Shown: positions 42,524-61,656 of the stretch, one piece after another
Position numbering within the stretch: the first letter of the stretch is position 1
Layout of the letters: each line of letters starts with the position of its first letter
NCBI RefSeq assembly: GCF_030294945.1
Contig: NZ_AP018448.1
Coordinates: forward strand, 5,982,001-6,046,000
Length of the DNA stretch: 64,000 bases
Direction of reading: 5' to 3'
From: Streptomyces graminofaciens
GTDB taxonomy: Bacteria; Actinomycetota; Actinomycetes; Streptomycetales; Streptomycetaceae
Program-made: the position numbers and the translations under genes
The notes under the pieces: model-generated
Database searches by the model: none
What the model was told of the DNA's origin: nothing
The model's input: the letters and a program-made list of their open reading frames with translations, nothing else

Positions 42524-42599
42524 GCCTTCGTAGCTCAGGGGATAGAGCACCGCTCTCCTAAAGCGGGTGTCGCAGGTTCGAATCCTGCCGGGGGCACCA
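42524..42599 (+). tRNA. tRNA-Arg (anticodon CCT)
   Basis: A complete 76-base cloverleaf. The acceptor arm GCCTTCG pairs with CGGGGGC (two G-U pairs), the D arm begins GCTC, and the anticodon loop CTCCTAA has CCT at 42557-42559. The T loop is TTCGAAT, and CCA is encoded at 42597-42599. Its 3' part is the attachment site of the AICE. The tRNA stays functional after insertion because the element supplies the same 3' end. Confidence 0.95.
42555..42597 (+). other. attachment site attL (tRNA 3' end)
   Basis: A 43-base core from the anticodon loop through the acceptor end (begins CTCCTAAAGCGGG, ends CCTGCCGGGGGCAC). It is exactly repeated at 60228-60270 and, with one G missing, at 61611-61652. Confidence 0.92.
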
Positions 42600-42603
42600 G
42601 CGC

Positions 42604-42654: not shown

Positions 42655-43818
42655 TCAACGGGGGCGGTCACTCACAACCGGCCGCCGCTTGAGCAGGCGA
42701 TCCATGTGGCTGATCGCCTCGCGCTGGGTGTCCTGCACGACGTGTGTGTACACGTCCATGGTGATGCTGATCTGACTGTGCCCGAGGATCTCCATGACGA
42801 CGCGGGGCGCGACTCCGGCAGCCGTGAGGAGGGTGGCCGTGCCATGCCGAGCGTCATGCAACCGGATCACGCGAAGGCCGGCGGACTCGGCGACGCGGGT
42901 GAAGGAGCGGTAGACGTTCCGAGGCTCGACCTGGCGACCGGTACGGGTGGTGAAGACGTACCCCGACTCCTGCCACTGCTCCCCCGCCTTGGCGCGTGCA
43001 GCGGACTGCCGCATGCGGTGCCAGCGCAGCGGGGCGATACAGAGCGCGGGAAGCGGGACGACACGTCGACGGCGGCTCTTGGGGTCGTCGTCGTACAGGA
43101 CGCCACGGCGCCGCTGGGTCTGCTGGCGGACGTAGAGCATGCGGTTTTCAAGGTCGAGGTCGGACCAGCGGAGACCGATGATCTCTCCCCTCCGCAGGCC
43201 CATGGCGATGGCAAGCACGAAGGCCGCGTAGAGGGGGTCTTTGCGGGATGCGGCGAGGAAGGTGAGCGTCTCGTCCAGGCTCCAGGGATTCATCTCCCGG
43301 TTGTCCGTACGGGGCGGCTCGACGAGCTTGGCGACGTTGCGCGTGATCAGCTCCTCGCGGCAGGCGGAGGACAGGGCGGAACGCAGAACGCGGTGCGACT
43401 CCTTGGCTGTTGCAGCAGTGGTCTCCTTCTCCAGACGGACGAGAAAGCCGCGCACGTCGGCGACGGCGAGGGATTCGAGCCGCTTGGAGCCGAGCAGCGG
43501 CACCAGGTAGAGCCGGACGTGCGACTCGTACTTGTCGTACGTGCTGAGCTTCCGCCGAGGCTTGATCACGTTGTCCAGCCAGTACGGCAGCCACTCGGAG
43601 AGCTTGGCCGAGCGGGTCGGCACGGGCACGCCCTGGTCGGCCTTGGCGAGCAGCTCCCTACGCTTGGTGTCACACTCCTGCCAGGTCTTGCCGTAGGCGA
43701 ACTTGCGGGCGCGGGTGCCGTCCGGCTGGAGCACGTAGACGGCGCACTGATAGCGGCCGTCCTTGCGCTTGGTGATCGTGCCTGCCCCGTTGGGGTTGCG
43801 CTTGCGCTGGCCGGCCAT
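42655..43818 (-). CDS. int: AICE tyrosine integrase
   Basis: This is a 387-residue phage-type integrase. It has an N-terminal arm-binding domain (residues 10-45), a core-binding domain (70-165) and a catalytic domain (175-370). The active site is complete: Arg209 in AMGLRRGEIIG, His321 and Arg324 in RLHDARHG, His347 in EILGHSQ, Tyr357 in DVYTHV. It carries out integration and, with Xis, excision at the tRNA-Arg site 55 bases away. Its start overlaps the xis stop by one base (TGATG). Confidence 0.95.
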   Translation of the reverse strand: MAGQRKRNPNGAGTITKRKDGRYQCAVYVLQPDGTRARKFAYGKTWQECDTKRRELLAKADQGVPVPTRSAKLSEWLPYWLDNVIKPRRKLSTYDKYESHVRLYLVPLLGSKRLESLAVADVRGFLVRLEKETTAATAKESHRVLRSALSSACREELITRNVAKLVEPPRTDNREMNPWSLDETLTFLAASRKDPLYAAFVLAIAMGLRRGEIIGLRWSDLDLENRMLYVRQQTQRRRGVLYDDDPKSRRRRVVPLPALCIAPLRWHRMRQSAARAKAGEQWQESGYVFTTRTGRQVEPRNVYRSFTRVAESAGLRVIRLHDARHGTATLLTAAGVAPRVVMEILGHSQISITMDVYTHVVQDTQREAISHMDRLLKRRPVVSDRPR

Positions 43819-46870: not shown

Positions 46871-48247
46871 TCAGTCGGTCAGCGGGTGCGGCTGTACCGC
46901 CGGGGCCGGGGACTCGACGGACAGTACGGGCACGTAGGGCTGGAACGGCTTGAGCGCGGGCAGGTCGGGCACCAGGTGGGCCGATTCCCGGCAGATCCCG
47001 GCAGCGTCGCCGAGGGACAGGTACGGCGTGCGGATGCGGGACCAGCCGCCGGAGGTGTCACCGGCCACGGCCAGGCCGGGCAGCTCGGGAGCGATGGCGC
47101 ATGCGGCGAGGACGGCTTCGGGGGCGATGTCGCCGAGGGCCATCTTCGCGGAGGCTTCGTCGTTGACGCGATGGCAGACCCGGCCGGTCAGTTGAGCGCG
47201 GAGCATGGTGGCGCCCTTGCCCAGCTCGGCGCCGAAGCGCTGCCCGCAGACCTCCAGGTAGATCCCGGCGGCGCGGCCGAGCTGGGCGAGGCGGATGAGC
47301 TGGGTGACCATCTCGTCCCGGCGTTCCTCGTCCTTCTTCGTGGCGACGAGGAAGAGTTCGGCCACCTCGTCGACGAACAGCACGATCGGTACCGGGCGTT
47401 CACTCTCGGGCAGGCCCCAGATGTCGGAGGTGATCTCCTCGTCGGGGGTGTCCGGGGCGATGCCTTGCCGGGCCTTGATCAGGTCGTAGCGGTTCTCCAT
47501 TTCCTTGACGAGCACGGGCAGCAGTTCGGCCGCCTGCTCGGGGTCGGTGGCGAGGGCGGAGAGCCGGGAGGCGAACGGCGCCAGCTCCACGCCCCGCTTG
47601 CAGTCGATACCGACCAGCGCGACGGGTTGCCGGGCGAGCCCGGTGATCAGGTGCCGCAGGTACATGGACTTCCCCGACAGCGTGGCGCCGAGGGTCAGCT
47701 GATGGGGAATGGTGCGGTAGTCGCGGACGAACGGGGTCGCGTCCTCCCGCAGTGCCACGGGCACCTTGAGGAACTCGACGGCGGCCTTGCGGGGCATCCG
47801 CACGTTCCGCAGCACGTCGAAGCCGACAAGCCGCAGTTCGACCACGCCCGGCTTGACCGTCGTCACGTACACGGCGTGCACCCCCCACGCGTGCCGCAGC
47901 CGCTCGGCGGAGGCGGCGACGTCCGCCGGTTCCTGGCCCGGAGCGAGCCGGAGGCGAAGCCGCAGCCCGGTCGCGGTGGGCCGGATGATGCCCCGGCGCG
48001 GCGGTACCGGCCGGACTTCGCGGCGGGTGGTGGCCTTGACGGCGAGGACCCGCAGCCGGGACGGCGCCACGGTCAGCCCGCATGCCTCCATGACCGAGCC
48101 GTACGTCCCGAGGAGTCGGGCGGTGGATATCGGCAGGCCGACCGTGGGCCAGTACACGCGGGGGTGTTTGGCTCGGGCGTAGGCGGCCCCGCCGCCGAGT
48201 GCGGCGACAGGACCACCCACCTCCAGAAGTGTCACCAGGTCGGACAT
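46871..48247 (-). CDS. traB: TraB/FtsK-type DNA translocase
   Basis: This is a 458-residue conjugation ATPase. ATG 48247 overlaps the previous stop (TGATG). Walker A is TLGATLSGKSMYL and Walker B PIVLFVDEVAELF. LIRLAQLGRAAGIYLEVCGQ is the RecA-like sensor region. A membrane-associated N-terminus and a C-terminal domain follow, the latter expected to recognise clt repeats. TraB moves double-stranded DNA between hyphae without nicking, so this element should be self-transmissible if KorSA permits. Confidence 0.92.
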   Translation of the reverse strand: MSDLVTLLEVGGPVAALGGGAAYARAKHPRVYWPTVGLPISTARLLGTYGSVMEACGLTVAPSRLRVLAVKATTRREVRPVPPRRGIIRPTATGLRLRLRLAPGQEPADVAASAERLRHAWGVHAVYVTTVKPGVVELRLVGFDVLRNVRMPRKAAVEFLKVPVALREDATPFVRDYRTIPHQLTLGATLSGKSMYLRHLITGLARQPVALVGIDCKRGVELAPFASRLSALATDPEQAAELLPVLVKEMENRYDLIKARQGIAPDTPDEEITSDIWGLPESERPVPIVLFVDEVAELFLVATKKDEERRDEMVTQLIRLAQLGRAAGIYLEVCGQRFGAELGKGATMLRAQLTGRVCHRVNDEASAKMALGDIAPEAVLAACAIAPELPGLAVAGDTSGGWSRIRTPYLSLGDAAGICRESAHLVPDLPALKPFQPYVPVLSVESPAPAVQPHPLTD

Positions 48248-48603
48248 CAGGCGGTGGCCCCCATGGCGGCCGGGAAGGCGGCCGGAGTCACGGCGGCGGC
48301 GCGGAAGGCGATGCCGTGCCGCTGCTGTCCGTTGAACACCGACTCCCACGGCCGGGCGACCAGCCCCGGCAGCGCGACCGGGGCCCCCAGGGCCAGCCCT
48401 TCGGCCACACCGCCTTCCGGCACGGTGACCTTGATCAGCGACGACTCGCCGTCCTCGATGTAGACGACGCCGATCGTCATCAGCGCTTCCCCGCTGACGG
48501 CGTCCTTGGCGATCTCGCCCGTCTGCCGGTCCCGGACCTTGGGCTCGGGAGCCTCCGTCAGCAGGATCGTTGCGGCCGAGGTCTCAACACGGATGGTACG
48601 CAA
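48247..48603 (-). CDS. SCO3933-family regulatory protein
   Basis: This is a 118-residue protein starting at TTG 48603 behind GGGGAAG. A beta-rich fold is predicted: VETSAATILLTEAPEPKVRD, TIGVVYIEDGESSLIKVTVP, LGAPVALPGLVARPWE. The family sits next to traB in many AICEs. A KorSA-type site lies 18 bases upstream. Confidence 0.82.
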   Translation of the reverse strand: MRTIRVETSAATILLTEAPEPKVRDRQTGEIAKDAVSGEALMTIGVVYIEDGESSLIKVTVPEGGVAEGLALGAPVALPGLVARPWESVFNGQQRHGIAFRAAAVTPAAFPAAMGATA

Positions 48604-48620
48604 GGGAACTTCCCCTATCT

Positions 48621-48636: not shown

Positions 48637-48695
48637 GACGTCCGGTGAACCCGGTCTCCGGGCTCATGCGAACGACTCTGCCACACCACTTGCCC

Positions 48696-48711
48696 ACTCG
48701 TCTATACGAGT
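48696..48711. promoter_or_regulatory. KorSA-type operator 3
   Basis: ACTCGTCTATACGAGT, the best dyad of the set (ACTCGT and ACGAGT around four bases). It lies about 90 bases upstream of the transfer genes. Confidence 0.7.
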
Positions 48712-48771
48712 ATGCCTGTTGGGGTGTACGAGTCGGAGAAGCATCCCCGCGCACCACCGCAAACCACCTGA

Positions 48772-49560
48772 TTACGTCGCCGGAAGCTGATACGACAGCA
48801 CGTACGCATCCGCCGCCATAACCGTGTCGCAGACCTCAACGGCCCGCCCCTCGGTGTCGAAGGCAGTGCGGATCAGGTGAATGACCGGCACACCGGAGGC
48901 CAGCCGCAGCGTCTTCACCTCTGCGGGCGAGGGCATCCGGGCCCGGATCTCCTCCTCGAAGTGATCGAGGCGATGGCCCAGCTCCTCCAGCCGGGCGTAG
49001 ATGCCACCGGGGCCGGGGTTGGGTTCGGCGATCGGCGTACCGCGCGCGATGTCCAGGGGCAGATAGGACGCGGCGAACTCGACCGGACGACCGTCGAGCA
49101 GATACCGGCGCCGACGCGCCAGCACCCGCCGCACGGACCCGAGCCGGGCCGAGACGTCCTGACTGGCCTTTTCTTCCTTCACCTCAAGGCTGTCGACCTG
49201 AGGGTGACTGCCGGCGGCGTTCGCTTCGACGATGAAGGCGGACTTGCCCTGCTCACGGTGCCGCCGGGCGAACCGGTCGGAGGCGAGCCGCCGCACGGGC
49301 GGCCGTGGTCGCACGAAGACGCCCTTGCCGTGCTCGGCGTGCACGAGTCCTTCGCCCTGGAGGACGGAGAAGGAGTTTCGGACCGTCATCCGGGATACCC
49401 CGTAGTGATCGACAAGTTCCGCTTCCGAGGGCAGCTTCTCGCCCTCCTTGAACCGCCCACGGTCGATGGCCTCGCGCAGCTGGTCGGCGATCTGCCGGAA
49501 AACCGCACGATCGCTCGTGGGGTCGAGATCGCCGAGGAGGCCGGAAGGAAGAGAGGGCAC
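48772..49560 (-). CDS. korSA: KorSA-type GntR/UTRA repressor
   Basis: This is a 262-residue protein starting at GTG 49560 behind AAAGGAG. The GntR winged helix is RQIADQLREAIDRGRFKEGE with LVDHYGVSRMTVRNSFSVLQ. The UTRA domain has VLARRRRYLLDGRPVEFAAS, GGIYARLEELGHRLDHFEEE and the usual ending. KorSA of pSAM2 represses the transfer and replication activator genes and itself. Four copies of an ACTCGTCTA-type site (45700, 48621, 48696 and, inverted, 49573) are all in the element. Confidence 0.92.
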   Translation of the reverse strand: MPSLPSGLLGDLDPTSDRAVFRQIADQLREAIDRGRFKEGEKLPSEAELVDHYGVSRMTVRNSFSVLQGEGLVHAEHGKGVFVRPRPPVRRLASDRFARRHREQGKSAFIVEANAAGSHPQVDSLEVKEEKASQDVSARLGSVRRVLARRRRYLLDGRPVEFAASYLPLDIARGTPIAEPNPGPGGIYARLEELGHRLDHFEEEIRARMPSPAEVKTLRLASGVPVIHLIRTAFDTEGRAVEVCDTVMAADAYVLSYQLPAT

Positions 49561-49572
49561 GTGTACTCCTTT

Positions 49573-49588
49573 AGATATCTAGACGAGT
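49573..49588. promoter_or_regulatory. KorSA-type operator 4
   Basis: AGATATCTAGACGAGT, the reverse complement of an ACTCGTCTA half-site. It lies 13 bases from the korSA start, between korSA and the divergent Nudix gene, and so probably controls both. Confidence 0.7.
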
Positions 49589-49643
49589 GGGCGTTTGTTG
49601 TTGCTACGGTGGAGAGCCTAGCCAGCCGAGAGGGCCGAGGAAC

Positions 49644-50075
49644 GTGAGCACCGACCGTCCGCACTCCGTGAGCGTCGCCGGAGTCATCGTCGACGAACAG
49701 GGCCGTGCCCTCTTGATCAAGCGCCGCGACAACGGCCACTGGGAACCGCCGGGCGGAGTCCTCGAACGCGAGGAAACCATCCCGGAAGCCCTCCAGCGCG
49801 AAGTTCTCGAAGAGACCGGCGTCAAGATCGCGCTTCCCGCGACCCTGACCGGCGTCTACAAGAACATGACGGGACTGATCGTCTCGCTGGTCTTCCGCTG
49901 CGAGGCGGCCGACGGCACGCCGACCACCGGAGACGAGACCCGCGCCCTGCGCTGGGCCACCCGTGAAGAAGTCACCGAGCTTGCCGACGAGGCGTACGCG
50001 ATCCGCGTCCTGGACGCATTGGACGCGGCATCCCCGCCGGCCATCCGCGCCCACGACGGCGTGAAACTCGTCTAG
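49644..50075 (+). CDS. pif: Nudix hydrolase, Pif-like immunity factor
   Basis: This is a 143-residue protein starting at GTG 49644 behind GAGG. The Nudix box is complete: GGVLEREETIPEALQREVLE followed by ETGV. In pSAM2 the Nudix protein Pif, encoded near korSA, prevents redundant transfer into cells that already carry the element. Position and size match, and function is inferred from that. Divergent from korSA with a shared operator. Confidence 0.85.
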   Translation: MSTDRPHSVSVAGVIVDEQGRALLIKRRDNGHWEPPGGVLEREETIPEALQREVLEETGVKIALPATLTGVYKNMTGLIVSLVFRCEAADGTPTTGDETRALRWATREEVTELADEAYAIRVLDALDAASPPAIRAHDGVKLV

Positions 50076-50121
50076 CCCGAACCCGCTGCACATGGCGGCC
50101 TACCAGCATGAAGGAACTTGT

Positions 50122-50550
50122 ATGCACGAGTATACGAGCACCGCCCGGGTCTGGGGACTCACTTGCCCAGGATTTCCGGAAGAGGTGAGCCGGGCCCGCC
50201 GCTGGACACGCGACATCCTGCGCGGATCACCCCTGGCCGACGATGCCGAACTGATCGTGAGCGAACTGAGCGCGAACGCAATCCTCCATACGGCCAGCGG
50301 CCTGGAGACGGGCAGCTTCCACCTGGCCCTAGCGGTGACCCGCAACGTGATCGCCCTGTCAGTGACGGACGGAGGAGGCACCGGTACGGCCCCGAAAGTC
50401 GAGCACCAGGACGACGAGGCCGAACACGGCCGCGGTTTGGGCATGGTCACCGCACTCGCCCACCGAATCGCCATCCACGGCAGCAAGGCTGGCTACACGG
50501 TCACTGCGGAACTCTTCACCGGCACCCGACCGGGAGACCGCCTGTGCTGA
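50122..50550 (+). CDS. GHKL/RsbW-type ATP-binding protein
   Basis: This is a 142-residue protein. ATG 50122 follows AAGGAA. It is a compact anti-sigma-like HATPase_c fold: DDAELIVSELSANAILHTAS (N-box), SVTDGGGTGTAPKV (G1), GRGLGMVTALAHRIAI (G2). There are no kinase or receiver domains. Streptomyces has many such RsbW-like proteins. Inside AICEs they are common next to the Nudix gene. It is coupled to the next gene by a 7-base overlap. Confidence 0.85.
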   Translation: MHEYTSTARVWGLTCPGFPEEVSRARRWTRDILRGSPLADDAELIVSELSANAILHTASGLETGSFHLALAVTRNVIALSVTDGGGTGTAPKVEHQDDEAEHGRGLGMVTALAHRIAIHGSKAGYTVTAELFTGTRPGDRLC

Positions 50551-50936
50551 AGGACGACGCCCGCCGCGGCTACTGGTGTGAATGCTGGACCGAAGACCTC
50601 AACGGTCAGGGCCGGTTGGAGCTGAGGGGGTCGTTCGACGCCTACTCGGCGCCCCAGGCCGACAGATGGGTAGCCGTGGCGCTCCGCACCATCTCCCCGG
50701 CATTCGACCCGGACGCGTCAGCGCAGGCGTGGGAGTGGCTGTACGACGGCCGCATAGAGACCCGTCGAGCCCTGTTGCGCTGCGAGCCCTGCACGGTGTC
50801 CGTCACCCACACCACGACCCGCATCACCTGGACCATCCGACCAGTGGTCTTCCTGCCGCTCGCGCACCGCGAAGCCAGGCAACTGCCGTCATGCGCATAC
50901 GACTTCAAGCCGCGACCGGACCAGCAGACCAACTGA
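50544..50936 (+). CDS. hypothetical protein coupled to GHKL ATPase
   Basis: This is a 130-residue protein starting at GTG 50544 behind GGGAG, overlapping the previous gene. It begins with a C-x-C region (YWCECWTEDLNGQGRLELRG), and a mixed alpha/beta body has AFDPDASAQAWEWLYDGRIE. It ends in VFLPLAHREARQLPSC. No known family. It may be the ligand or partner of the ATPase. Confidence 0.7.
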   Translation: MLKDDARRGYWCECWTEDLNGQGRLELRGSFDAYSAPQADRWVAVALRTISPAFDPDASAQAWEWLYDGRIETRRALLRCEPCTVSVTHTTTRITWTIRPVVFLPLAHREARQLPSCAYDFKPRPDQQTN

Positions 50937-51122
50937 GTTACAACCTTCTTTACTGGTTCAAGGCGGCTCGCTCCGCTCACCGCGCGCGGCCCGGCCCCCG
51001 GCCGGGCCTGCGCTCCTGTCTACGCCCCGCTCCAGCCCGGCCGGCGCCCGTGCCGCGCTCAAAGCATGCGGCCACCTGATGCCAGAGAAGGGGTACGTCG
51101 TGGCTCGGGCGGTCGGCTCCAC

Positions 51123-51132
51123 GGCTTTACGG
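51123..51132 (+). repeat. IS4 target-site duplication, left
   Basis: GGCTTTACGG, repeated exactly at 52685-52694 on the other side of the IS. Confidence 0.85.
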
Positions 51133-52684
51133 CAAGACCGGGAAGTTAGGGCTGTTGTGGCTGGTCGGGTGGGTTGACATGGGAACGGAGCCCGGCGCGG
51201 ACTGTGAGTGTCGAGGTCACGGTCCGAGGGGGCTCCGTTGTCTGTTCAGTGTGCCACCGCAGGGGTGGTTCGGGACCGGTCGTGGGTGTGGTTGCCCGGT
51301 CATTTAGGGGTGTTGACGCGGTGGGTGCCGCCGTCGCTGGTGGACGAGGTGGTTCGAGCGGCGGGCCGGGGTGAGCGGCGGGTGCGGCTGCTGCCGGCGC
51401 GGGTGGTGGTCTACTTCGTGCTGGCCATGGTGCTGTTCCCGGAGTGTGGATACCGCCGGGTGTGGGCGTCGTTGACGGCCAGGTGGCCCGGTTCGGCACT
51501 TGCCGATCCATCGGCAGCGGCTCTGCGGCAGGCTCGTCGGCGGTTGGGGGTCGAGCCGCTGGCGTTGCTGTTCGACCGGCTTCGCGGCACGGTGGGCACC
51601 CCGGCAACGCCGGGGGTGTTCTGGCGGAGTCTGCGGCTGGTGGCCTGGGACGGCACCTGCGTGGAGGTGGCGGACAGCGAAGCGAACGTGGCCCGGTTCA
51701 GGCGGCATGCGGCCCGCACCACACGTCCGGCCGGCTATCCCCAGGTGCGGCTGACCGCGCTGGTGGAGTGCGGGACCCGTGCCCTAATCGATGCGGTGTT
51801 CGGGCCGCAGCAGTACACCGAGTGGCCGCAGGCCCGTGCTCTGCTGCCCTCTCTGCAGCCTGGCATGCTGCTGCTTGCCGACCGCGGCTACGACGGCTTC
51901 GAGGCCCTGCGGGACGCTGCTGCCACCGGCGCCGATGTGCTGTGGCGGGTGCAGGCAGGGCGTCTGCTGCCCGTCATCCGCCCGTTGCCGGACGGCACCC
52001 ATCTCACCCTGGTCACCGACCGGCGCTCCGGTGACCGGCTCACCCGGTGGATGCGCCACGGCCGCCGCGGTCCGATGCCCGCACACCTGACCGCCCTCAC
52101 GCTGCGTGTGATCAGCTACCGGGTCACCCGGACCGCCGCGGACGGCACCTTTCGCACCAGCACGGTCCGCCTGGTCACCACGCTGCTCGACCCGCACGAG
52201 CACCCGGCCGCCGAGCTGGCCGTCCTCTACCAGCAGCGCTGGGAGATCGAGACCGCCTACTACGGGCTCAAGGTCACCCTGCGCGGAGCCGACCGCGTCC
52301 TGCGCTCACGCACCGTCGCGGGAGTTGAACAGGAACTCCTCGCGCTGCTGACCGTCTACCAGGCCGCCCGCATCGCCATGACCCAGGCGGCCACCACCGC
52401 CGGGGTCGACCCCGACCGGCTGTCCTTGACCACGGCCCTGCACACCATCCGGCTCACGCTGATCACCGCCAACACCACAGGACCGACCCTCCTTGCGGAA
52501 GTCCTGCTGAAAGCACGCAACCTCGCGCCCACACGGCGCCGTTCACGCACCAGCCCGCGGTGCGTCAAACGCACCCTGTCGCCCTACGCCTACAACAAGA
52601 CCAAAGGCAGCGTCGGACACAAGACGACCGTGACCACCACCATCACCCTGACCAGCGCCGACAGACCTTAACTTCCCGGTCTTG
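51133..52684 (+). mobile_element. intact IS4-family insertion sequence, 1552 bp
   Basis: Perfect 16-bp terminal inverted repeats (CAAGACCGGGAAGTTA at 51133-51148, its complement at 52669-52684) enclose one full transposase gene. 10-bp target duplications flank it. Length, repeat type and target size fit IS4. Without the IS the target would read GGCTCC, ten bases, GGAGCC, a small hairpin. Confidence 0.92.
51208..52671 (+). CDS. IS4-family transposase
   Basis: This is a 487-residue DDE transposase starting at GTG 51208. The first Asp is in LVAWDGTCVEVADSEANV, the second in LLADRGYDGFEALRD. The YREK-like signature with Glu is QQRWEIETAYYGLKVTLRGA. The frame is uninterrupted from near one inverted repeat to within 10 bases of the other stop, so the element is probably active. 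It is inserted in the AICE after the GHKL gene pair. Confidence 0.92.
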   Translation: MSRSRSEGAPLSVQCATAGVVRDRSWVWLPGHLGVLTRWVPPSLVDEVVRAAGRGERRVRLLPARVVVYFVLAMVLFPECGYRRVWASLTARWPGSALADPSAAALRQARRRLGVEPLALLFDRLRGTVGTPATPGVFWRSLRLVAWDGTCVEVADSEANVARFRRHAARTTRPAGYPQVRLTALVECGTRALIDAVFGPQQYTEWPQARALLPSLQPGMLLLADRGYDGFEALRDAAATGADVLWRVQAGRLLPVIRPLPDGTHLTLVTDRRSGDRLTRWMRHGRRGPMPAHLTALTLRVISYRVTRTAADGTFRTSTVRLVTTLLDPHEHPAAELAVLYQQRWEIETAYYGLKVTLRGADRVLRSRTVAGVEQELLALLTVYQAARIAMTQAATTAGVDPDRLSLTTALHTIRLTLITANTTGPTLLAEVLLKARNLAPTRRRSRTSPRCVKRTLSPYAYNKTKGSVGHKTTVTTTITLTSADRP

Positions 52685-52694
52685 GGCTTTACGG
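52685..52694 (+). repeat. IS4 target-site duplication, right
   Basis: GGCTTTACGG, exact copy of 51123-51132. Confidence 0.85.
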
Positions 52695-52699
52695 AGCCA

Positions 52700-52810
52700 C
52701 TTTGGCGCGAGCCTCGAAGATCATGGCCCCAACGTCGTGCTTTACCGGGCAGGTCCACAGACTGCCCGACGCGCCGGAAGCTTACGGGGCCATGATCACT
52801 CGCGCCAAAG
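52700..52810. repeat. large imperfect inverted repeat
   Basis: CTTTGGCGCGAG (52700-52711) pairs with CTCGCGCCAAAG (52799-52810), and ATCATGGCCCC (about 52720-52730) with GGGGCCATGAT. The loop is about 55 bases and includes a smaller GGGCAG/CTGCCC hairpin. It marks the border between GC-rich transfer DNA and the AT-richer cargo. It could be a replication or transfer site, an RNA structure or the end of an older insertion. Confidence 0.55.
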
Positions 52811-53020
52811 CAGCACCACCCCAAAGCCGCTCCACCGACCTCTACTGAGACCTGATACGACTGTCTGCCGTTGAATTAGTTGAACGTGGCCCATCATCCT
52901 CCTCTCGGTTGCCGTTCCACCGGTCAGGTTGCGCACCAGAAGAGATCAGACAAACACTGGAAACAGGCATGATCCTGCCGCGTGCTTGAACCAATGACTC
53001 AAGGCAGAGGGTCGAGCGCC

Positions 53021-54205
53021 ATGATTCACAACCCACCTCACAATCCGTTCGTCGAACAGGTGGCAGGTGACTATTTCGTTGGGCGCGAATGGCAAGTCCA
53101 GGAATTCAAAAGTTCCCTGGCGGGGCTGGAGGCAGGGCAGCCGCGCCATCTATACATTGCTGGACTACACGGAACCGGAAAAACTTCCTACCTGCAGAAG
53201 CTTATAGATACGTCAAGCACGGGGAGCGTTCTCGGCGTGCTGGCCACCTTGGACCAAGCTACGGCATATGATCAGGCCTCCACTTTGGTCAAATCTGTCG
53301 CGGCTGAAATAGATCACAAAGCTAGCACAAGACTCATTGAGGACTGGGAGAGTCCGGAGGGCTCGACACATTTTTATTTGCCTCGCAGGGATCGCCTACT
53401 CAGCGATGATCTCCGACACGACCTAAAGACACTTAAAGAGATCGCTGCTTCATCCGGACTGTCAAAGACTGTCATTTGCATTGACGAGGGCCACCGAATC
53501 GAGGGCTCCGCGCTCTCCGCTTTGAAGAATGCGATGCAGCATTTGAATGATTACCTTGTCATTCTATCGCTTCTCCTAATTCACGAAAAGGGGGGAGCGG
53601 TTGAGGATGGCCGTGCGATGCTAGACAGAAAAGCCGGTGAAGCTCAGGGCGATTACGGGGCCTCAAGATTTTTTGCAAAGGGGATCCCTTTGGGGCCATT
53701 TGAGACGCAGACTGAAGCAGAGCGGTGTATCCGACGCCGTCTCCAAGGAAACCCAATTGGCTTCACGGACACCGTGATCGCACTCATAGCTAGTGTATCT
53801 GGGCGAGTGCCACACGAAATTATCGCTATTGGATCCGATGTCTATGACCGCACTTCCCGTGAGGGGCACCAAAGAGCAACCAAAGAGATATTCCTTGCAT
53901 CCTTCAAGAATCGGTTCAGCCATGATTACGGCAAGGCCCTAGAAATTCGGTCGCAACTTTCGGAGACTGCTCGTCGTGCAATCCTTACGCTCTTGGAAAT
54001 GGGCAGGTCGACTGAAGTAGATGCTCTAGCTGCACGGATGTATCCCGACATACCAAAAGACGCACAAAGAACCGTCGCCGCCGGCATAAAGGGAGAGCTT
54101 GACCGAATGTGCAATTCGGCATTTTGTTCTGAGATTGACGGTCGTTACGAGATAGATCATCCCGTGCGTCGGTACGCACTTGAGATCGCACTGGAGCTGG
54201 AATGA
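53021..54205 (+). CDS. AAA-type ATPase of three-gene cargo operon
   Basis: This is a protein of about 394 residues. ATG 53021 lies 10 bases after AAGGCAGAGG; earlier GTG 52982 and ATG 52994 are possible. It starts like Orc/STAND-type ATPases (NPFVEQVAGDYFVGREWQVQ). Walker A is AGLHGTGKTSYL (residues 47-58) and Walker B VICIDEGHRI (151-160). The C-terminal third is a winged-helix-like region (RRAILTLLEMGRSTEVDALA, IKGELDRMCNSAFCSEIDGR) that could act as sensor. Base composition is distinctly more AT-rich than the rest of the element, and rare codons are common. It overlaps the next gene by 4 bases (ATGA). Confidence 0.8.
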   Translation: MIHNPPHNPFVEQVAGDYFVGREWQVQEFKSSLAGLEAGQPRHLYIAGLHGTGKTSYLQKLIDTSSTGSVLGVLATLDQATAYDQASTLVKSVAAEIDHKASTRLIEDWESPEGSTHFYLPRRDRLLSDDLRHDLKTLKEIAASSGLSKTVICIDEGHRIEGSALSALKNAMQHLNDYLVILSLLLIHEKGGAVEDGRAMLDRKAGEAQGDYGASRFFAKGIPLGPFETQTEAERCIRRRLQGNPIGFTDTVIALIASVSGRVPHEIIAIGSDVYDRTSREGHQRATKEIFLASFKNRFSHDYGKALEIRSQLSETARRAILTLLEMGRSTEVDALAARMYPDIPKDAQRTVAAGIKGELDRMCNSAFCSEIDGRYEIDHPVRRYALEIALELE

Positions 54206-55920
54206 TTACAGAAGATTCCGGACTCTGGGAAGAGGTTCTTTCAGGGCGCGAGGAGAGTTTCATACCCAGAATTTTGCGAAACTCTGTCCGTTACCTGACT
54301 AACGCCAGAGATTCCCACAGAGGGTGGCCTCCTTATCCAGGGCTGCCTAGCGACTTGCACTGCTCATGTGTCGCGATAGAAGCACTGAGAGCCATTAGCG
54401 ATGATGATGACACCTACGAAGTCCCCATCGCAGAAGCCGCTTCCTTTATTAGGGACGAATACGGCGGGAAAGCAAGTGGGGGTTCAATTGAGGAACTCCT
54501 TGACTTGATGACTGTTTCAATATCGGAAGAAGATAAGAACTCTGAGTATGCATCGGCCCTTCATCAACAGTTCCAAGCGGCATTTCATGCGGCAAACTCG
54601 GGAAATCGCACTCTGTCAACTCAAATACTAAGTAGAGCACTGTACATTTCGACGCAATGGTCCAACGAGGATCAATTGTCCCTTTCGTTGCTTTCTTTGG
54701 TCTTGAAACGTCAGCGAGCACAGACGGGTGCGTGGTCTCAGATAGAGGGATCTGATGAGGACTCGATTTCTGCAACTGCGTGGGCCGTTCGAGCTATTTC
54801 AAAAATAAGCACCAAAGAATCCAATGGGGCAACCTCGAATGGTCTTCAATATATTAAATCTCAGCTCGTGGACCGAGGCTGGGAGGGAGCGTGTGCCGGA
54901 GGCGGACTATTGACAACAGCCGTGGTTCTCCGCGCGGTTTCTGCGGTCGATCTACGTGATGACTTGGACCTCGTCGACTCTGGCGTCGAGTACTTGCGGA
55001 GTCAGATAAACCCTGATGGGGGCTGGGGCGGCGGCACCGGCGAAGTCAGCAGCGTTGAGCACACCGCTGCTGCGGTCGTAGCCCTAGCCGAAAGCGGAGA
55101 GAATAAATTTGTACCCGTTAGGATAACCCGAGAAACGGTCAACGCTCTGCAGTCTCAAGTAGCGGAAATAGCGTCCGAGCGAGATTCCCTCACTGAGGAC
55201 TTCGAAGGCAGAATCTTGGAACACTGTGGAAGGGTAAAGAGGGAGCGAGACGATTTTAGAAAGAGAGTACGACAGGCCGAGGCGAGGGCTTCCGAGCTAG
55301 AGGAAGCGGTTGCACAATTGCAGCGTGGAATCGCAGAACGAGACCATGAGCGCCTGAGTCTCATGAGCACTATACGACCTGCTCAACTCATGAATAGGCG
55401 AGGCATCTCTCGATCGGAGCGCCTACTCTGCATACCTATTTTCATCCTCCTCGGTGTAACTGTTGCCGCACCATACGTGTTGAAGAGTACAGAGATTGCA
55501 GCAATAGTATCCTCCGTCTCAATACTTGCTCTAGTGCTACTTTTTCTCTACTGGTTTAGGCGCGTTACTTATCGGAGAAATAGTTTCTTGGTCGATCGAC
55601 TCATGGCGGAGCAGCTACTGTTCGAACCGTCTCTTAAACCTCACCGTCGAGTACAGCTTGATATTCTGCTGGATAGCTTCCGCTACGCAACCGAGGATTT
55701 TCCTCCAAGTATTCGGGAGGAACTCGTCTATCGGCTTCTCCGCGACGGAGTCGACATTCCGCAGGACATCGGCAGCCGATACATACGCGAACTAATGCTC
55801 GATCTGCACATACCTCCACGTCGCTCGCAAGGCCTAGAGGCGTGGCTGGAACGTGTCATGTCACTTGATCCAGACAATAGGAGAATACTTTTCAGCCAGC
55901 TAAGGAGGGCGATCCTTTGA
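54202..55920 (+). CDS. alpha/alpha-toroid, coiled-coil, two-TM protein
   Basis: This is a 572-residue protein. Residues 25-300 contain terpene-cyclase/prenyltransferase-like repeats: GAWSQIEGSDEDSISATAWA, RGWEGACAGGGLLTTAVVL and NPDGGWGGGTGEVSSVEHTA, each with the QW-type tryptophan-glycine and a following helix. The DxDD acid of squalene cyclases is incomplete (SDEDS at 184-188), so catalysis is doubtful. A coiled coil follows (about 310-390), then two transmembrane helices (409-427, 432-452) and a cytosolic helical domain (453-572). The toroid may bind a lipid or peptide signal and pass it to the membrane. It starts at ATG 54202 inside the ATPase stop and ends overlapping the third gene. 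Confidence 0.82.
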   Translation: MITEDSGLWEEVLSGREESFIPRILRNSVRYLTNARDSHRGWPPYPGLPSDLHCSCVAIEALRAISDDDDTYEVPIAEAASFIRDEYGGKASGGSIEELLDLMTVSISEEDKNSEYASALHQQFQAAFHAANSGNRTLSTQILSRALYISTQWSNEDQLSLSLLSLVLKRQRAQTGAWSQIEGSDEDSISATAWAVRAISKISTKESNGATSNGLQYIKSQLVDRGWEGACAGGGLLTTAVVLRAVSAVDLRDDLDLVDSGVEYLRSQINPDGGWGGGTGEVSSVEHTAAAVVALAESGENKFVPVRITRETVNALQSQVAEIASERDSLTEDFEGRILEHCGRVKRERDDFRKRVRQAEARASELEEAVAQLQRGIAERDHERLSLMSTIRPAQLMNRRGISRSERLLCIPIFILLGVTVAAPYVLKSTEIAAIVSSVSILALVLLFLYWFRRVTYRRNSFLVDRLMAEQLLFEPSLKPHRRVQLDILLDSFRYATEDFPPSIREELVYRLLRDGVDIPQDIGSRYIRELMLDLHIPPRRSQGLEAWLERVMSLDPDNRRILFSQLRRAIL

Positions 55921-56753
55921 TCAGGGCCGTGCTACGACTTCTTGTTCTTGCCGCCAAAGCAGCAGTTGTAACCGCGGCTAGCCTGACCTTGGTGATGGGA
56001 AGCGCTCAAGAGGCCCCTTCTGAAGAATTCCGCTCCCTAGATATCCGCACATTCGCTTCCAGATCTCCCGGTGCCACTCATGATTTCGTCATAGTGTCGC
56101 TCTCAAACAAGACTGACAAGGAATTTCCTGCAGTCGTAGTAGAAGTTTGGTCGGAAAAACAGCTAAACAAGTGTCAAGTGAACAAGATGGATCCGATGCA
56201 AGATCTAGTGCTGCGGCTTTCCGTTCCATCTGGACAGGGCGACATGTACGTTATTGCTCGTCGTGGCGCCCGAGACTCAAAAGCTATACCCGTACAAACG
56301 TCAGAAAAACAAGAGCCCGCTAAGGTCTCTCCTCCTAGCTTGCTTACGACGATGGGGCCAGCCACCCTTGCCTTAATTGGTGTATTCATAGGTGCCGTAT
56401 TGGGGCACGCCTTCGCGTCGCGTAGAGAATCCGCGAGAGGATACTTCGAATGGTCTAAAATGCTCTACGAGCGTCACCATGAAGCTTATATCAGATTTCT
56501 AGGAAACTGGGAAGGTAGTCCTAATTCAAAGATCCTGAGGGATAATTTCGAACGTCTTAAGTCACAAGGTGCCATCCCTGTCAATATCTTGGCGCTCTAC
56601 AGGGAAGTGCAATCTAAACTCGACGATTCCTCGGTTTCACAGGAGGAAAAGCAGAAGGCGGCAGACCGGCTTTACGCGCAAGTAAGTAACATACTGTCGG
56701 ATCCAATAGCTACCCGCAGGAAGCGATGGCGGAAGATGATGTCGAGTCGGTGA
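55917..56753 (+). CDS. membrane protein, third gene of cargo operon
   Basis: This is a 278-residue protein starting at TTG 55917, which overlaps the previous stop (TTGA); AAGGAGG lies 9 bases before it. An N-terminal hydrophobic segment (residues 5-28) acts as signal or anchor. A beta-rich domain (35-130, FVIVSLSNKTDKEFPAVVVE) probably lies outside. A second transmembrane helix (LIGVFIGAVLGHAFA) is followed by a cytosolic helical tail (170-278) with very basic end RRKRWRKMMSSR. No family recognised. Translational coupling of all three genes implies one complex. Confidence 0.78.
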   Translation: MIRAVLRLLVLAAKAAVVTAASLTLVMGSAQEAPSEEFRSLDIRTFASRSPGATHDFVIVSLSNKTDKEFPAVVVEVWSEKQLNKCQVNKMDPMQDLVLRLSVPSGQGDMYVIARRGARDSKAIPVQTSEKQEPAKVSPPSLLTTMGPATLALIGVFIGAVLGHAFASRRESARGYFEWSKMLYERHHEAYIRFLGNWEGSPNSKILRDNFERLKSQGAIPVNILALYREVQSKLDDSSVSQEEKQKAADRLYAQVSNILSDPIATRRKRWRKMMSSR

Positions 56754-57027
56754 GAGGGACGACGGGCAGGATGACCACGCTGCTGACAAGGTCAGCGGTG
56801 GTCCAAACGGCCGGCTGAACCTCACAGAGGCACGTCAGAGCTTCCCGGCTTTGGGAGCCTATGACGAGCAATGTACCGCGTTCGTACGAGCCTTTGCCGG
56901 GCGAACACCCAACGGTCTGACATCAACGTCGGCGGCAGACGGCCACAGATCCGGCGCCCTGGACTGGATTCCGAAGCGGCCAGCAAGCAGATGTCCGAGC
57001 AGCCCGCATGGTTCATGGTTCGAACTC

Positions 57028-58023
57028 CTAAAGGGGTGGCCGTGGGCCTCTTGCCCCTCGCAGCAACCGTCTAGGAAGACGACGCCGGACTGCCTCCCAG
57101 ACCCCCGGGCGTCCCTCCACTCTTCGCAACTCTCGTCGAATCCTGATCTTGCCGAAGACCCCCGGGGTCTTCTCAAGTGTCCGTACTACGTCGTAGTCAG
57201 GACCGCTGCGCGGTACCTCCGGGCAAATGTTCAGCCGTTCCATGCCTTGAACCATCAGGCTGTTCACGACCGCACGGGTGCGGTACGTGTCCAATTCCTG
57301 CTGTTGATCCACTGGAAGTCTTTCGATCAGGTCACCCCGGAGGAACGCCGAGTTCTCAGGACCGAGCCGCTCCATGGCTCCTGCTTCACCAGCCCGATAA
57401 CCGGTACCGGAGACACCGCACATCCACGTCATGTAATGCCCTGGGTTCCCGAAGTAGTACACCTCGTAGTACTCGTGCCGCCGAGCACCCTTCCATGAGG
57501 CGATTTCTTCCGGGTGCGGCAGGTCCAGAGCGTTACTGACTTGAGCGAGCCGCGTGCGACCCAGGCGCACATTCAGGGCGGGCCCGTTTGAGTACCAGGA
57601 GGAACCCATACGGATCTTGGGCTTGAACCGCTTACTTGTGGTAGTGAGCGAGTAGGCCACGACGTCTGACTCGCTGCCCCAGGTCGTCAGGTAGCCCTCT
57701 GTCGCCAGGGGCCAGACCCGCTCCGTCACACTCAGGCGACTTCCCTCGCCAGGCGTGAGACTCAACACCGGCACCGTCAGCTCAAAGGCAGGCTCCCCGA
57801 ACAGCGCTTCAACGTAGGCCGGCCGCACGCCTGGGGCGAGCTGCTTGAAGTTCTTGGTCCAGGTTCGTCGCCTGCCCGGACCCTTCTTCCACCACTCGGT
57901 CACCGTTCCGATGAGGGTCAGCGCCGCCACCACCCCGCCCATGATCTTGCCGATGTCGGCAAGAGTGCTCAGCTCGTTCACGGGAGGCATCTTGCACCCC
58001 AGTGACGTGGCGCATACCCACAT
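57028..58023 (-). CDS. membrane-anchored hypothetical protein
   Basis: This is a 331-residue protein (ATG 58023, or ATG 57990 giving 320). One hydrophobic helix near residues 22-42 (IGKIMGGVVAALTLIGTVTE) is followed by WWKKGPGRRRTWTKNFKQ. A cytosolic domain follows (PAYVEALFGEPAFEL, YYEVYYFGNPGHYMTW). The start of this domain resembles what some annotations call an ETEC_3214 domain, which is my recollection only. The last 70 residues are basic. It points toward the cargo operon, 270 bases from its end, and may be separate cargo. Confidence 0.7.
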   Translation of the reverse strand: MWVCATSLGCKMPPVNELSTLADIGKIMGGVVAALTLIGTVTEWWKKGPGRRRTWTKNFKQLAPGVRPAYVEALFGEPAFELTVPVLSLTPGEGSRLSVTERVWPLATEGYLTTWGSESDVVAYSLTTTSKRFKPKIRMGSSWYSNGPALNVRLGRTRLAQVSNALDLPHPEEIASWKGARRHEYYEVYYFGNPGHYMTWMCGVSGTGYRAGEAGAMERLGPENSAFLRGDLIERLPVDQQQELDTYRTRAVVNSLMVQGMERLNICPEVPRSGPDYDVVRTLEKTPGVFGKIRIRRELRRVEGRPGVWEAVRRRLPRRLLRGARGPRPPL

Positions 58024-58346
58024 CCCACTAGATCCGTGCAGTCCTATGCCTGACCACCTGCACGTGTTCCGGGCAGACGGGAACGGGGATGCGTCCGGCG
58101 CACCACTAGCGCACCAGAACGAGCGGGGAACAGCGGGGCTTCACGGGAAGGTTGCCGAGCTTGACAGGGACACTCATCCACCGTTCACCCAGTTCAGCGC
58201 CCGTACCACCCCCAAATGCCCGCAGCTTCCCAAGCTGAGGGCTCCGCAACTGTCGGCACGGGCCTGCCCTGCAGCTTGCTTTGGTCCGCGACCACAACGG
58301 TCGCAAAGCTCATGCCTATCGGAGCGTTGCGCACTAACCTCCAACT
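58024..58346. other. divergent promoter region
   Basis: About 320 bases between two divergent cargo genes. No gene is seen; it should hold both promoters. Confidence 0.45.
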
Positions 58347-59042
58347 ATGGCAAGCACGACATGCGGATGGTGCGGACGGCTGGCTCACATGAGACCGGTC
58401 GGCGGTGCCGAAGTGGTCCCCGATCAGGACAGCCGTCTCAACGTGGGATTCGAAGCCTATCGATGTGCCAACTGCCGCCGGCTGGTCCTCGCCCACGGGT
58501 GGACCGACTTCAAGCCTACGAATGATTGGGACGACGCACCTTCCGATCTCTGGGACCACCCTCAGGCCCAGCAGCCACGATGGCTTCCCCCGGCGAAGTC
58601 CAACAGGACGTTCCCAGATGTCCCCGCAGCGATCGAGTCGCTAGCGGTTGAGGCGCACGATTGTCTGAGTATCAAGGCTGACCGAGCTGCCGTGGCACTT
58701 GCCCGTGCAGTAGTCGAGGCATCCGCGAAGGAAAAAGGTGTCGCCAGAGGGAGCCTGATCGCGAAGATCGATGAGCTGCACCAACTCGGGTTGCTCCGCG
58801 GGCACATCAAAGAAGCCGCACACGAGGTGCGCTTCGGCGGCAATGAGGTAGCCCATGGCGATCTCACCCCCGTTGATCACGAGGCAGCCGAAGAAATTCT
58901 GACACTCATGGATGAGGTGCTTAACGACCTCTTTCAGTCCCCGGCTCGCGTGGCCCGTGCCCGTCAGCGACGCCTGGAACGATCCCAAGCAGGCCCCGCG
59001 TCGGTGCACACCAGCGCGTCAGAAGGACAGCCCAGCACCTGA
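58347..59042 (+). CDS. zinc-finger plus DUF4145-like protein
   Basis: This is a 231-residue protein starting at ATG 58347. Two CxxC pairs near the N-terminus (TTCGWCGRLAH and RCANCRRLVLAH) form a zinc ribbon. Residues 85-190 (RAAVALARAVVEASAKEKGV, LRGHIKEAAHEVRFGGNEVA) match the helical DUF4145 domain, often fused to or next to defence nucleases and ATPases. A tail rich in Arg and Ser follows. It has its own terminator and no operon partner. Confidence 0.82.
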   Translation: MASTTCGWCGRLAHMRPVGGAEVVPDQDSRLNVGFEAYRCANCRRLVLAHGWTDFKPTNDWDDAPSDLWDHPQAQQPRWLPPAKSNRTFPDVPAAIESLAVEAHDCLSIKADRAAVALARAVVEASAKEKGVARGSLIAKIDELHQLGLLRGHIKEAAHEVRFGGNEVAHGDLTPVDHEAAEEILTLMDEVLNDLFQSPARVARARQRRLERSQAGPASVHTSASEGQPST

Positions 59043-59104
59043 ACTCCTGACGCAGCACTCACGGCAAGGCTCCACGGGCCATCGCCCGTATCCGTCACAT
59101 CAGG

Positions 59105-59138
59105 AGGGCCCCTGTCAGCTTGCAGGCTGACAGGGGCC
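59105..59138. terminator. strong bidirectional hairpin
   Basis: GGGCCCCTGTCAGC and GCTGACAGGGGCCC form a perfect 14-bp stem around TTGCAG. It lies between the converging DUF4145-like and hicB genes. Confidence 0.85.
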
Positions 59139-59164
59139 CAGACTGCGCAAGGCGCAGAGTTGAC

Positions 59165-59560
59165 TCAACCCTTCTTTGGAGCGAGCTTGGCGATGTACTG
59201 ATGTGAGACGCCGAGCATCGAGCCCGCATCCCTGACCGTGGCCTTCGCGGTTAGGGTTCGCGCAGCTGCCGCCAATGCTTCAGCGGCAGCCTTATTGGCC
59301 AGCTCGGCTTCTTCCCGGGCCTTCTCGGCCGTGATGATGGCGTTGGCCATGTCTGGATCGGCCGGCCGCATCACAACCTCAAATGCCTCCTCAGGCACCT
59401 CCAGCAGCATGGCTACTACGTCCGCAGCCATCTTCCGCGCCTCGCTCCACGTGCGACCCTGGGTAACACCAACGAGCCCCTCAGGGAGATCGTCAACGGT
59501 AACTACCCAGTGTGCCCCGTCTTGGGTGGCAACTGCGTGGTAAGTCCTAGTGTCGGCCAC
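59165..59560 (-). CDS. hicB: HicB-type antitoxin
   Basis: This is a 131-residue protein starting at GTG 59560 behind AAAGGAG. The N-terminal HicB fold is YHAVATQDGAHWVVTVDDLP and GLVGVTQGRTWSEARKMAAD. A helical linker leads to a short helix-turn-helix (ATVRDAGSMLGVSHQYIAKL) for operator binding. It should neutralise the toxin encoded just upstream (gap about 100 bases). The position near the right attachment site fits an addiction module keeping the element. Confidence 0.85.
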   Translation of the reverse strand: MADTRTYHAVATQDGAHWVVTVDDLPEGLVGVTQGRTWSEARKMAADVVAMLLEVPEEAFEVVMRPADPDMANAIITAEKAREEAELANKAAAEALAAAARTLTAKATVRDAGSMLGVSHQYIAKLAPKKG

Positions 59561-59662
59561 GTCTCCTTTCTCCTTCCATTCCTTCTTCCTTGTTCTGTGT
59601 GCACAACCGAAGGCGTGAGACCCTGATCGGAGGGGGCCGACCTGCACTCGGCCCCCAGTCGA

Positions 59663-59854
59663 TCACGCTCCCTCCGCCGCCTTGATCAAAGCCTTGGCGG
59701 TTCCCTCAGCGATCTCCCTGTGTCGCGGGACAGGAAGAGATACGCCCCTGAGGGTGTAAATCTCATGGTTTGCCCCCTGTCGCGCTAGTACGAGATCAGC
59801 ATCCTTGTTTGCGGCGATCTGCCGCAGTTCCTGTATCAAGGTGCGCTTGTGCAC
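59663..59854 (-). CDS. hicA: HicA-type mRNA interferase toxin
   Basis: This is a 63-residue dsRBD-like toxin starting at ATG 59854. KRTLIQELRQIAANKDADL, then the catalytic histidine in GANHEIYTLRGVSLPVPRHR. HicA cleaves mRNA in the cytosol until bound by HicB. The order toxin-antitoxin is standard for hicAB. Confidence 0.85.
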   Translation of the reverse strand: MHKRTLIQELRQIAANKDADLVLARQGANHEIYTLRGVSLPVPRHREIAEGTAKALIKAAEGA

Positions 59855-60227
59855 CCATCTTGTCTACCATAGGCGACGCCCCCTGTCTAATCGAGGCGAC
59901 AAGCCTGTCCTGCCGCGGCGGTCCCACCGACCAGACGGACACGCCCCTGCCAGGCGCGTACAGATCGCATGGGGAACAGGCACGCCACGACGCTGGGGCT
60001 GAGGCGCTGGCCGGGCCCAGTCTCGGGTGGGCGTGATTCTGCAAGGCGCCAGGGGAACACAGCTCTGGGAACCGGCCGGAGGAGCCATTGGAGGCCTGCC
60101 CCATGTTCGAGCTGTTCCGCTGACATCCAACGTTGACATCAACGCCCCCGAACGGCGGCGGCTCCCAGCAGCCACGTACGGCGTTGGTTCACGACGCGCG
60201 CCCCGACCCGCCCGATGGAGGATCGAA
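59855..60227. other. element end upstream of hicA, no gene seen
   Basis: About 370 bases up to the second attachment site. It should hold the hicAB promoter. Long frames here run through the attachment site and are not coding. Confidence 0.45.
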
Positions 60228-60270
60228 CTCCTAAAGCGGGTGTCGCAGGTTCGAATCCTGCCGGGGGCAC
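60228..60270 (+). other. attachment site attR of the AICE
   Basis: A 43-base direct repeat identical to 42555-42597, the 3' part of the tRNA-Arg gene without its 5' half. It marks the right end of the 17.7 kb AICE. Confidence 0.9.
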
Positions 60271-60322
60271 AGCGCATTAAGCCACTGACCTGGGGTTTCT
60301 CCCCCAGAGAGGTGTTCTCTTC

Positions 60323-60352
60323 GGCCCCGGACTCCGCGTCCGGGGCCGTTTT
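60323..60352. terminator. hairpin terminator
   Basis: GGCCCCGGAC and GTCCGGGGCC around TCCGC, followed by GTTTT. It lies on the plus strand after the attachment site. Confidence 0.75.
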
Positions 60353-60401
60353 GCGTGAGCGACGGGGACTGCTCGGCCGGTAGCGGGTCTGTATGCGCAG
60401 G

Positions 60402-60742
60402 TCTGAACGTCGGGAACCAGCCGGTGCAGGCTGCCCGGGCCGAACGGCGCAGTGCCGCCCTCGCCGGTTCTGCCGGTGAGCAGGTGCAGCCGTCCGCCCC
60501 GTAACGCGACCACGTGGCGCACCTCGTTCAGCAACACGACATCGGCCTCGCTGCGCACCCGGTACAGCACGACGACGTCGCCGGGCGCCTCCTCCTCCAA
60601 CATGACACTCAAGGGCGTGATCCCCACGCCCCTGGCGATCAGCAGGGTGCCGGGCCGGGTCCGGCGCGGCGAGGTGAACGCCCCGTACGGTCCCTCGACG
60701 AAGGCGCGGCTGCGGACCGGAACGTTCCGCAGGCCGACGCTG
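60402..60742 (-). pseudogene. ferric-reductase/FNR-type fragment
   Basis: The minus strand encodes the NAD-binding half of a ferredoxin-reductase-like domain: VRSRAFVEGPYGAFT, RPGTLLIARGVGITPLSVML, DVVVLYRVRSEADVVLLNEV, HRLVPDVQT. Both ends are missing; the C-terminal CGPP motif is cut off at the terminator. Such domains occur in membrane ferric reductases. The fragment lies between two attachment repeats. Confidence 0.65.
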
Positions 60743-60885
60743 GTTCCTCACTTATCGTGGGCTCGCTGGTCGGATGCTGGCCGACGGGGAGGGGTGTGAT
60801 CGAGATCAGCATGCCGGACGGACGGCAGACAGTACGCTGAATCCAGCGGGATCGGGCCCGCAGCACAGTGTCCGGGAGGTGCTCC

Positions 60886-61652: not shown

Positions 61653-61656
61653 CAGG

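Follow-up and report, generated by a model that had tools for sequence, protein, structure and literature searches.

What three overlapping, AT-rich genes are doing on a mobile element is the question raised by a 64,000-nucleotide (nt) stretch of DNA from Streptomyces graminofaciens (contig NZ_AP018448.1, positions 5,982,001 to 6,046,000; the whole stretch is termed the window herein, and positions are counted from its first letter), which is part of an 11.6-Mb genome in a single contig. The genes, at positions 53021 to 56753, encode a predicted Orc/Cdc6-like AAA+ ATPase, a protein that joins a terpene cyclase-like alpha/alpha toroid to membrane helices, and a second membrane protein. They form one operon, and the set is conserved and carried as cargo by an actinomycete integrative and conjugative element (AICE), in a slot that is occupied by the abortive infection gene AbiU in another element. 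Judged from sequence, the three genes may well form a membrane-anchored module acting against phages (of the abortive infection type) or against other mobile elements, a reading on which we are evenly balanced.

The operon and its carrier element

Gene 1 (53021..54205, plus strand) encodes 394 amino acids without a membrane segment, gene 2 (54202..55920, plus) encodes 572 amino acids, and gene 3 (55917..56753, plus), which has a TTG start, encodes 278. Adjacent genes share 4 nt, ATGA at the first junction and TTGA at the second, and coordinates, frames, and overlaps are all as claimed in the original prediction, which a model had made from the letters of the window. That prediction had also described the operon as more AT-rich than the surrounding AICE, and its GC content is indeed 0.518, compared with 0.681 in the AICE outside the cargo slot. 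Placement within an AICE, claimed as well, is borne out by a 43-bp direct repeat, with one copy (attL, 42555..42597, plus) lying within the tRNA-Arg(CCT) gene (42524-42599) and reproducing the 3' part of the tRNA and the other (attR, 60228..60270, plus) lying beyond the operon. Between the two copies are genes for a tyrosine integrase (42655..43818, minus), a small HTH_17 protein, an FtsK/SpoIIIE-type transfer protein (46871..48349, minus) and a GntR/UTRA regulator (48772..49560, minus), the latter two assigned with Pfam, as well as a NUDIX protein, a HATPase protein, and a replication initiator recognised through a nucleotide match to annotated plasmid genes. With the integrase adjoining the att repeat at the tRNA gene and with FtsK, replication initiator, and GntR genes present, the span has the make-up of an AICE.

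All three genes recur in Streptomyces cellulosae NRRL B-2687 (genome G214), where their order and 4-nt overlaps are kept and the protein identities to the window are 51% (gene 1), 46% (gene 2), and 35% (gene 3). The S. cellulosae operon lies in a different AICE, recognisable by a 66-bp att repeat at tRNA-Ser and an integrase-like open reading frame (ORF; named by eye) beside that tRNA; the three-gene neighbourhood is thus conserved in a second, different element. Between the two operons, the third position differs in 67-68% of codons, the first in 36-51%, and the second in 26-37%, and the three frames remain open. Because the differences concentrate at third codon positions, the comparison indicates that all three genes are under purifying selection. 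At least two of the genes, those for the toroid (P0005) and the ATPase (P0015), are also present in Streptomyces lydicus.

The samples of genomes differed between searches, some of them lacking S. cellulosae, so the following counts are not frequencies. The ATPase turned up in 2 of the 392 Streptomyces genomes searched and, at the class level, in 5 of 296 genomes at E ≤ 1e-4, with a strong match in its own genome only. Relatives of the toroid were detected in 118 of 394 family genomes at E ≤ 0.001, full length in just two (its own and S. cellulosae) and as partial matches of ≤34 bits in the others; at the class level there were 2 in 345 (its own and one ordinary toroid, at 30.8 bits). Six loci with a toroid only were extended, and the four that were scanned, the first of them with ORFs taken from mechanical lists, held SCO2321-like or ordinary cyclase-like toroids. 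Gene 3 was found at the genus level in 1 of 148 genomes, its own, and a protein search with it returned itself alone, although this search was limited in that it missed the known S. cellulosae homologue. Genes 1 and 2 had no match in the plasmid search, the toroid had no relatives in genome contigs, and searches of phages and viral contigs yielded no relatives.

No model in PADLOC, NCBIfam, or Pfam names a system of these three genes. The best PADLOC-DB 2.0.0 matches of the ATPase were AbiO (E 0.0088) and BrxD (E 0.031), and genes 2 and 3 had none; full-text literature searches turned up no paper on the three-gene set. The earlier statement that no named defence system has this composition therefore stands, with matches to the ATPase family that are weak only.

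The three proteins

Gene 1 carries a Walker A motif (AGLHGTGKTS) and a Walker B motif (VICIDEG) and matches Pfam AAA_16 with 52.6 bits (cut-off, 32.6). It belongs to a family of Orc/Cdc6-like ATPases of about 400 residues, of which 33 proteins were found including the query, from sources that include at least Streptomyces, Micromonospora, Pyrinomonadaceae, and Acetothermia. Walker A and B are conserved in the 33-row family alignment, and AAA_16 is matched by 32 of the 33. The original label of an Orc/STAND-like ATPase (STAND, signal transduction ATPase with numerous domains) holds by profile for its Orc/Cdc6-like AAA+ part and is tentative for its STAND part; the STAND models stay below their cut-offs (nSTAND_NTPase5, 13.9 bits for gene 1 versus 34; nSTAND1, 20.5 bits for the S. 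cellulosae homologue versus 27.1). Further searches with the ATPase family gave no match in 60 genomes of a phylum, none in 41 and 160 genomes of the genus of G788, and one in 158 genomes of the class of G752, and this single match (G798, 40.9 bits) sits amid unrelated genes. Genome contigs gave two matches, one short, in an Anaerolineae regulator-like gene, and the plasmid search gave one distant Halobaculum ATPase for one relative and none for another.

Among known systems, the bacteriophage exclusion (BREX) ATPases BrxC and BrxD come close to this family, 13 of whose 33 members match PF10923 (BrxC_BrxD) at E ≤ 1e-5; the two have been placed in the Orc/Cdc6 clade (PMC12839542). The window ATPase itself, however, reaches 11.5 bits against a PF10923 cut-off of 22.2, and its partners are membrane proteins, the operon having no methyltransferase, PglZ, helicase, or further BREX gene. 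Membership in BREX was rejected on this weak, below-cut-off similarity.

Gene 2 scores above the Pfam cut-offs for SQHop_cyclase_N and SQHop_cyclase_C, contains four QW-like repeats, and has two hydrophobic segments at residues 405-453. Its structure model (mean predicted local distance difference test [pLDDT] score, 63.4) consists of a helical toroid (residues 20-297), a long helix (311-387) interpreted as a coiled coil, a pair of membrane helices, and, at the C terminus, a helical domain. Repeats, hydrophobic segments, and model helices agree with the QW-type repeats, coiled coil, and two transmembrane helices that had been proposed for this protein. The closest structural neighbours of the toroid model are class II terpene cyclases, and transcobalamin was also matched; the VIA structural-neighbour list has no further domain match beyond residues 16-303, which is uninformative on the fold of the remainder, and Foldseek alone gave no match for the toroid model at E ≤ 0.001. 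Gene 2 thus resembles class II terpene cyclases, transcobalamin, and other alpha/alpha toroids in fold, but it differs from the cyclases in having a half-size toroid that lacks a conserved DxDD motif and is fused to the coiled coil, membrane hairpin, and C-terminal domain. The claim that the toroid has no full DxDD acid held in part: none is conserved, yet the window protein does have a single match, DDDD at residues 67-70, which is absent from two of the three homologues compared. Since the toroid lacks the conserved class II acid, gene 2 is unlikely to be an ordinary cyclase. It also resembles the SCO2321 family membrane protein (NF053823), which likewise combines a toroid and a membrane segment in Streptomyces, with local similarity over about 45 residues. 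Scores of 52.1 bits for gene 2 and 51.4 bits for its S. cellulosae homologue, set against a cut-off of 300 and 563.9 bits for a true member, led us to reject membership in that family.

Identity between the window and S. cellulosae versions of gene 2 is highest in the C-terminal core (residues 487-572), at 69.8%, and drops to 45.8% in the toroid, 39.8% in the coiled coil, and 32.2% in the membrane part. The C-terminal domain thus appears to be the most tightly constrained part of the protein and is perhaps the contact for the ATPase or the active part. Because it is this domain, and not the toroid, that is best conserved, the three proteins may share the work otherwise than in the original prediction, in which the toroid would sense a ligand or peptide, the ATPase would gate the response, and the membrane proteins would damage the envelope.

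Gene 3 has hydrophobic segments at residues 1-28 and 141-169, interpreted as a signal or anchor helix and a membrane helix, with a probable extracytoplasmic beta domain between them and a helical part at the C terminus. It matched no family in Pfam, PADLOC, or NCBIfam and had weak matches only in PHROGs. Its structure model is of poor quality (mean pLDDT, 53.6), and a structure search with it returned nothing. Of the anchor, outer beta-rich domain, and second transmembrane helix first ascribed to this protein, the two hydrophobic segments were recovered; the beta domain is plausible and no firmer, because the model is poor.

The cargo slot and its flanks

When the two AICEs were compared at the nucleotide level, the operon matched in two pieces, and the sequences flanking it gave the only other matches. 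The left flank is split in the window into a first piece (50958..51132, plus; 85% identity with the S. cellulosae AICE) and a second piece (52685..52832, plus; 96% identical), which together correspond to positions 9108-9429 of the S. cellulosae locus (L031), and the right flank (58099..58239, plus; 75% identical) corresponds to L031 positions 13461-13600. The operon sits between the same flanks in both elements, in opposite orientations. Exactly in the structured left flank of the window sits an insertion sequence (51133..52684, plus) whose terminal inverted repeats are perfect over 16 bp and which is flanked by a 10-bp repeat (GGCTTTACGG); its transposase ORF (51208-52671) is of the IS4 type by eye. 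The slot of the window also holds an ORF of 331 amino acids (57028..58023, minus; 62.6% GC), which has no match in Pfam or PADLOC and, by the nucleotide comparison, is absent from the S. cellulosae slot.

The left flank was found in 17 plasmid records and the right flank in 6, with one record, NBC_01635 (L052, NZ_CP109278.1), present in both listings. This 20,952-bp AICE-like record has integrase, replication initiator, FtsK, and GntR genes, and the two flanks are arranged and oriented relative to each other as in the window and S. cellulosae elements. Between them lie a gene of 53% GC with an AIPR family annotation, one hypothetical gene and one DUF4265 gene, and some 2 kb that are unannotated. 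The AIPR gene matches PADLOC AbiU almost from end to end (574 bits, E 1.1e-172). AbiU is thus like the operon in its position between the same flanks and in being AT-rich; it differs in being a single gene of no common sequence family, so that position is the only link. This shared slot gives the operon an indirect link to defence that goes beyond the original prediction. AICE cargo can hold AIPR and restriction systems (PMC9513070). The unannotated 2 kb (L052 positions 7884-9985) have no gene annotation in PLSDB despite ORFs of 80 to 260 codons.

Surroundings of the left flank were covered in 8 of the 17 records: besides NBC_01635 there was no AbiU-like case, S. formicae had no clear cargo, and the genes elsewhere were mixed, with a helicase of partial restriction enzyme similarity as the neighbour in S. 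albidoflavus. For the right flank, the surroundings were covered in 4 of the 6 records, two of them unannotated.

The 148 nt of the second left-flank piece are predicted to fold as a single long hairpin (−41.7 kcal/mol as DNA; z, −4.97), which occurs in AICEs and plasmids of Streptomyces. In six related copies (window 52685-52832, L031:9282-9429, L052:9986-10129, L053:7161-7306, L054:7999-8139, and L055:7999-8140), 9 of 46 pairs are changed on both sides and still paired, a number matched by 0 of 500 shuffles and compared with 0 to 2 for slid versions. Despite the few, related sequences, covariation points clearly to a structured element. Perhaps it is a replication or transfer site, such as a single-strand origin or a cis-acting locus of transfer (clt). 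An Rfam scan of positions 42000-62000 found nothing besides the tRNA.

In the right flank, an invariant 16-nt run (CAGCTTCCCAAGCTGA; alignment A6) resembles by eye the anticodon arm of tRNA-Gly, and some copies extend into sequence resembling the 3' half of that tRNA (NBC_01450, by eye). Because aligned copies run into this tRNA-Gly-like half, the right flank may represent an old att region rather than part of the slot proper.

Candidate functions and further genes of the element

A role in conflict is supported by the unity of the operon, its mobility, its rarity, its odd base composition, and the slot shared with AbiU, and a location at the membrane is supported by the domain layout. In the mechanism we propose, the ATPase would be a cytosolic, nucleotide-driven switch. 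Gene 2 would combine a noncatalytic toroid receptor with a C-terminal partner domain held at the inner face of the membrane by the two-helix hairpin, and gene 3 would connect its extracytoplasmic domain with a helical part in the cytosol. Once the toroid or gene 3 had recognised an infection cue, the ATPase could assemble with the C-terminal domain of gene 2, which would then open or remodel the membrane, and the infected cell would be stopped. A more specific reading, which we put forward tentatively and hold to be somewhat less than an even chance, is that of an undescribed three-gene immune system. Its cyclase-like toroid would have changed from an enzyme into a receptor tethered to the membrane and under the control of an Orc/Cdc6-like ATPase, a kind also present in other phyla, and the system would have spread among Streptomyces through an AICE defence slot beside a conserved structured DNA element. 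The layout, in which an ATPase accompanies membrane proteins on mobile DNA, is already known in kind, and the toroid in it is new within the searches made. The NTPase-centred conflict systems of multicellular bacteria (PMC7159879, PMC8195603) are similar in joining an NTPase switch to a variable receptor or effector and in being mobile in filamentous actinobacteria; in the parts of these papers that were read, however, "toroid" refers to NTPase rings and not to a terpene cyclase-like toroid, and such a three-gene set was not found.

Several findings weigh against a defence role. No PADLOC model matches the operon, and the similarity of the ATPase family to SngB, BrxD, mad8, and TIR-NLR proteins is weak (best E, 2.8e-5 to 1e-3); the family matches no PDB chain by sequence above 29.7 bits, and neighbouring genes are known for just 3 of its 33 proteins. 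The toroid lacks a Foldseek match at the threshold given above, and model confidence is middling (63) for gene 2 and poor (54) for gene 3. The left flank alone is no marker of defence, given its mixed neighbours in the 8 of 17 records, and the argument from the slot comprises three elements, with AbiU in one.

Other functions would account for some of the same features. The operon could serve the AICE itself, in entry exclusion, mating-pair formation, or spread, rather than act against phages: two AICEs carry it close to transfer control genes, and an ATPase with membrane proteins would fit exclusion or spread. Yet AICEs are frequent in Streptomyces (PMC9513070), whereas the operon is rare by the ATPase and full-length toroid counts given above (2 of 392 Streptomyces and 2 of 394 family genomes); moreover, it is AT-rich relative to the AICE backbone, its orientation relative to the flanks varies, and the NBC_01635 element holds AbiU in the slot instead, so that we consider this function unlikely. 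We find it slightly harder still to favour a role in sensing or resisting envelope stress or antimicrobials, in which the toroid would bind a lipid, isoprenoid, or peptide and gene 3 would sense the outside. The probable extracytoplasmic domain of gene 3 and the binding of cobalamin and isoprenoids by solved proteins of the toroid fold would suit such a role, but the operon contains no regulator, transporter, or resistance gene, and Pfam, PADLOC, and NCBIfam scans gave no sequence link to known stress families.

Overlapping genes, membrane proteins, and a mobile setting would also suit a toxin-antitoxin-like addiction module that stabilises the AICE. A set of three genes is large for this purpose, however, toxin-antitoxin families in Pfam and NCBIfam are unmatched, and the AICE has a small gene pair of its own (59165-59854; HicA/HicB-like by eye only), all of which makes addiction very improbable. 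Least probable is that the toroid works as a terpene cyclase or some other metabolic enzyme and that the operon is biosynthetic. Although the SQHop_cyclase matches exceed their cut-offs and class II cyclases are the nearest structures, DxDD is not conserved across the three homologues, the toroid is fused to a coiled coil, a membrane hairpin, and a better-conserved C-terminal domain, neither AICE has biosynthetic neighbours, and the NCBIfam cyclase model gives 35.4 bits against a cut-off of 431. For the lack of a conserved DxDD and the fused C-terminal parts, a metabolic cyclase was rejected as the principal explanation.

If the defence reading is true, the squalene cyclase toroid would be a new sensor fold in bacterial immunity and would come with a new membrane effector. 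The flanks of the slot could then be used as bait for finding further systems in Streptomyces, as has been done with other mobile-element hotspots, and the 33-protein ATPase family could be a second bait. Whatever its function, the three-gene set moves between AICEs as a unit and is a well-defined experimental target.

The AICE of the window contains other genes outside the operon. A DUF4145 protein (58347-59042) bears a weak resemblance to PD-T7-4, which is a defence protein (28.7 bits, E 2e-7). In the adjacent pair of small ORFs at 59165-59854, which resembles HicB/HicA by eye, the first ORF has no Pfam match and neither has a PADLOC match. Beyond attR, the att core recurs over at least 39 nt in a further copy (positions 61611-61649), and an ORF between the two (60868-61452) matches PADLOC PDC-S03 with 79.5 bits; as a side reading, we take this copy and the PDC-S03-like ORF to be, from their sequences and positions, the remnant of an accretion or of a tandem element.

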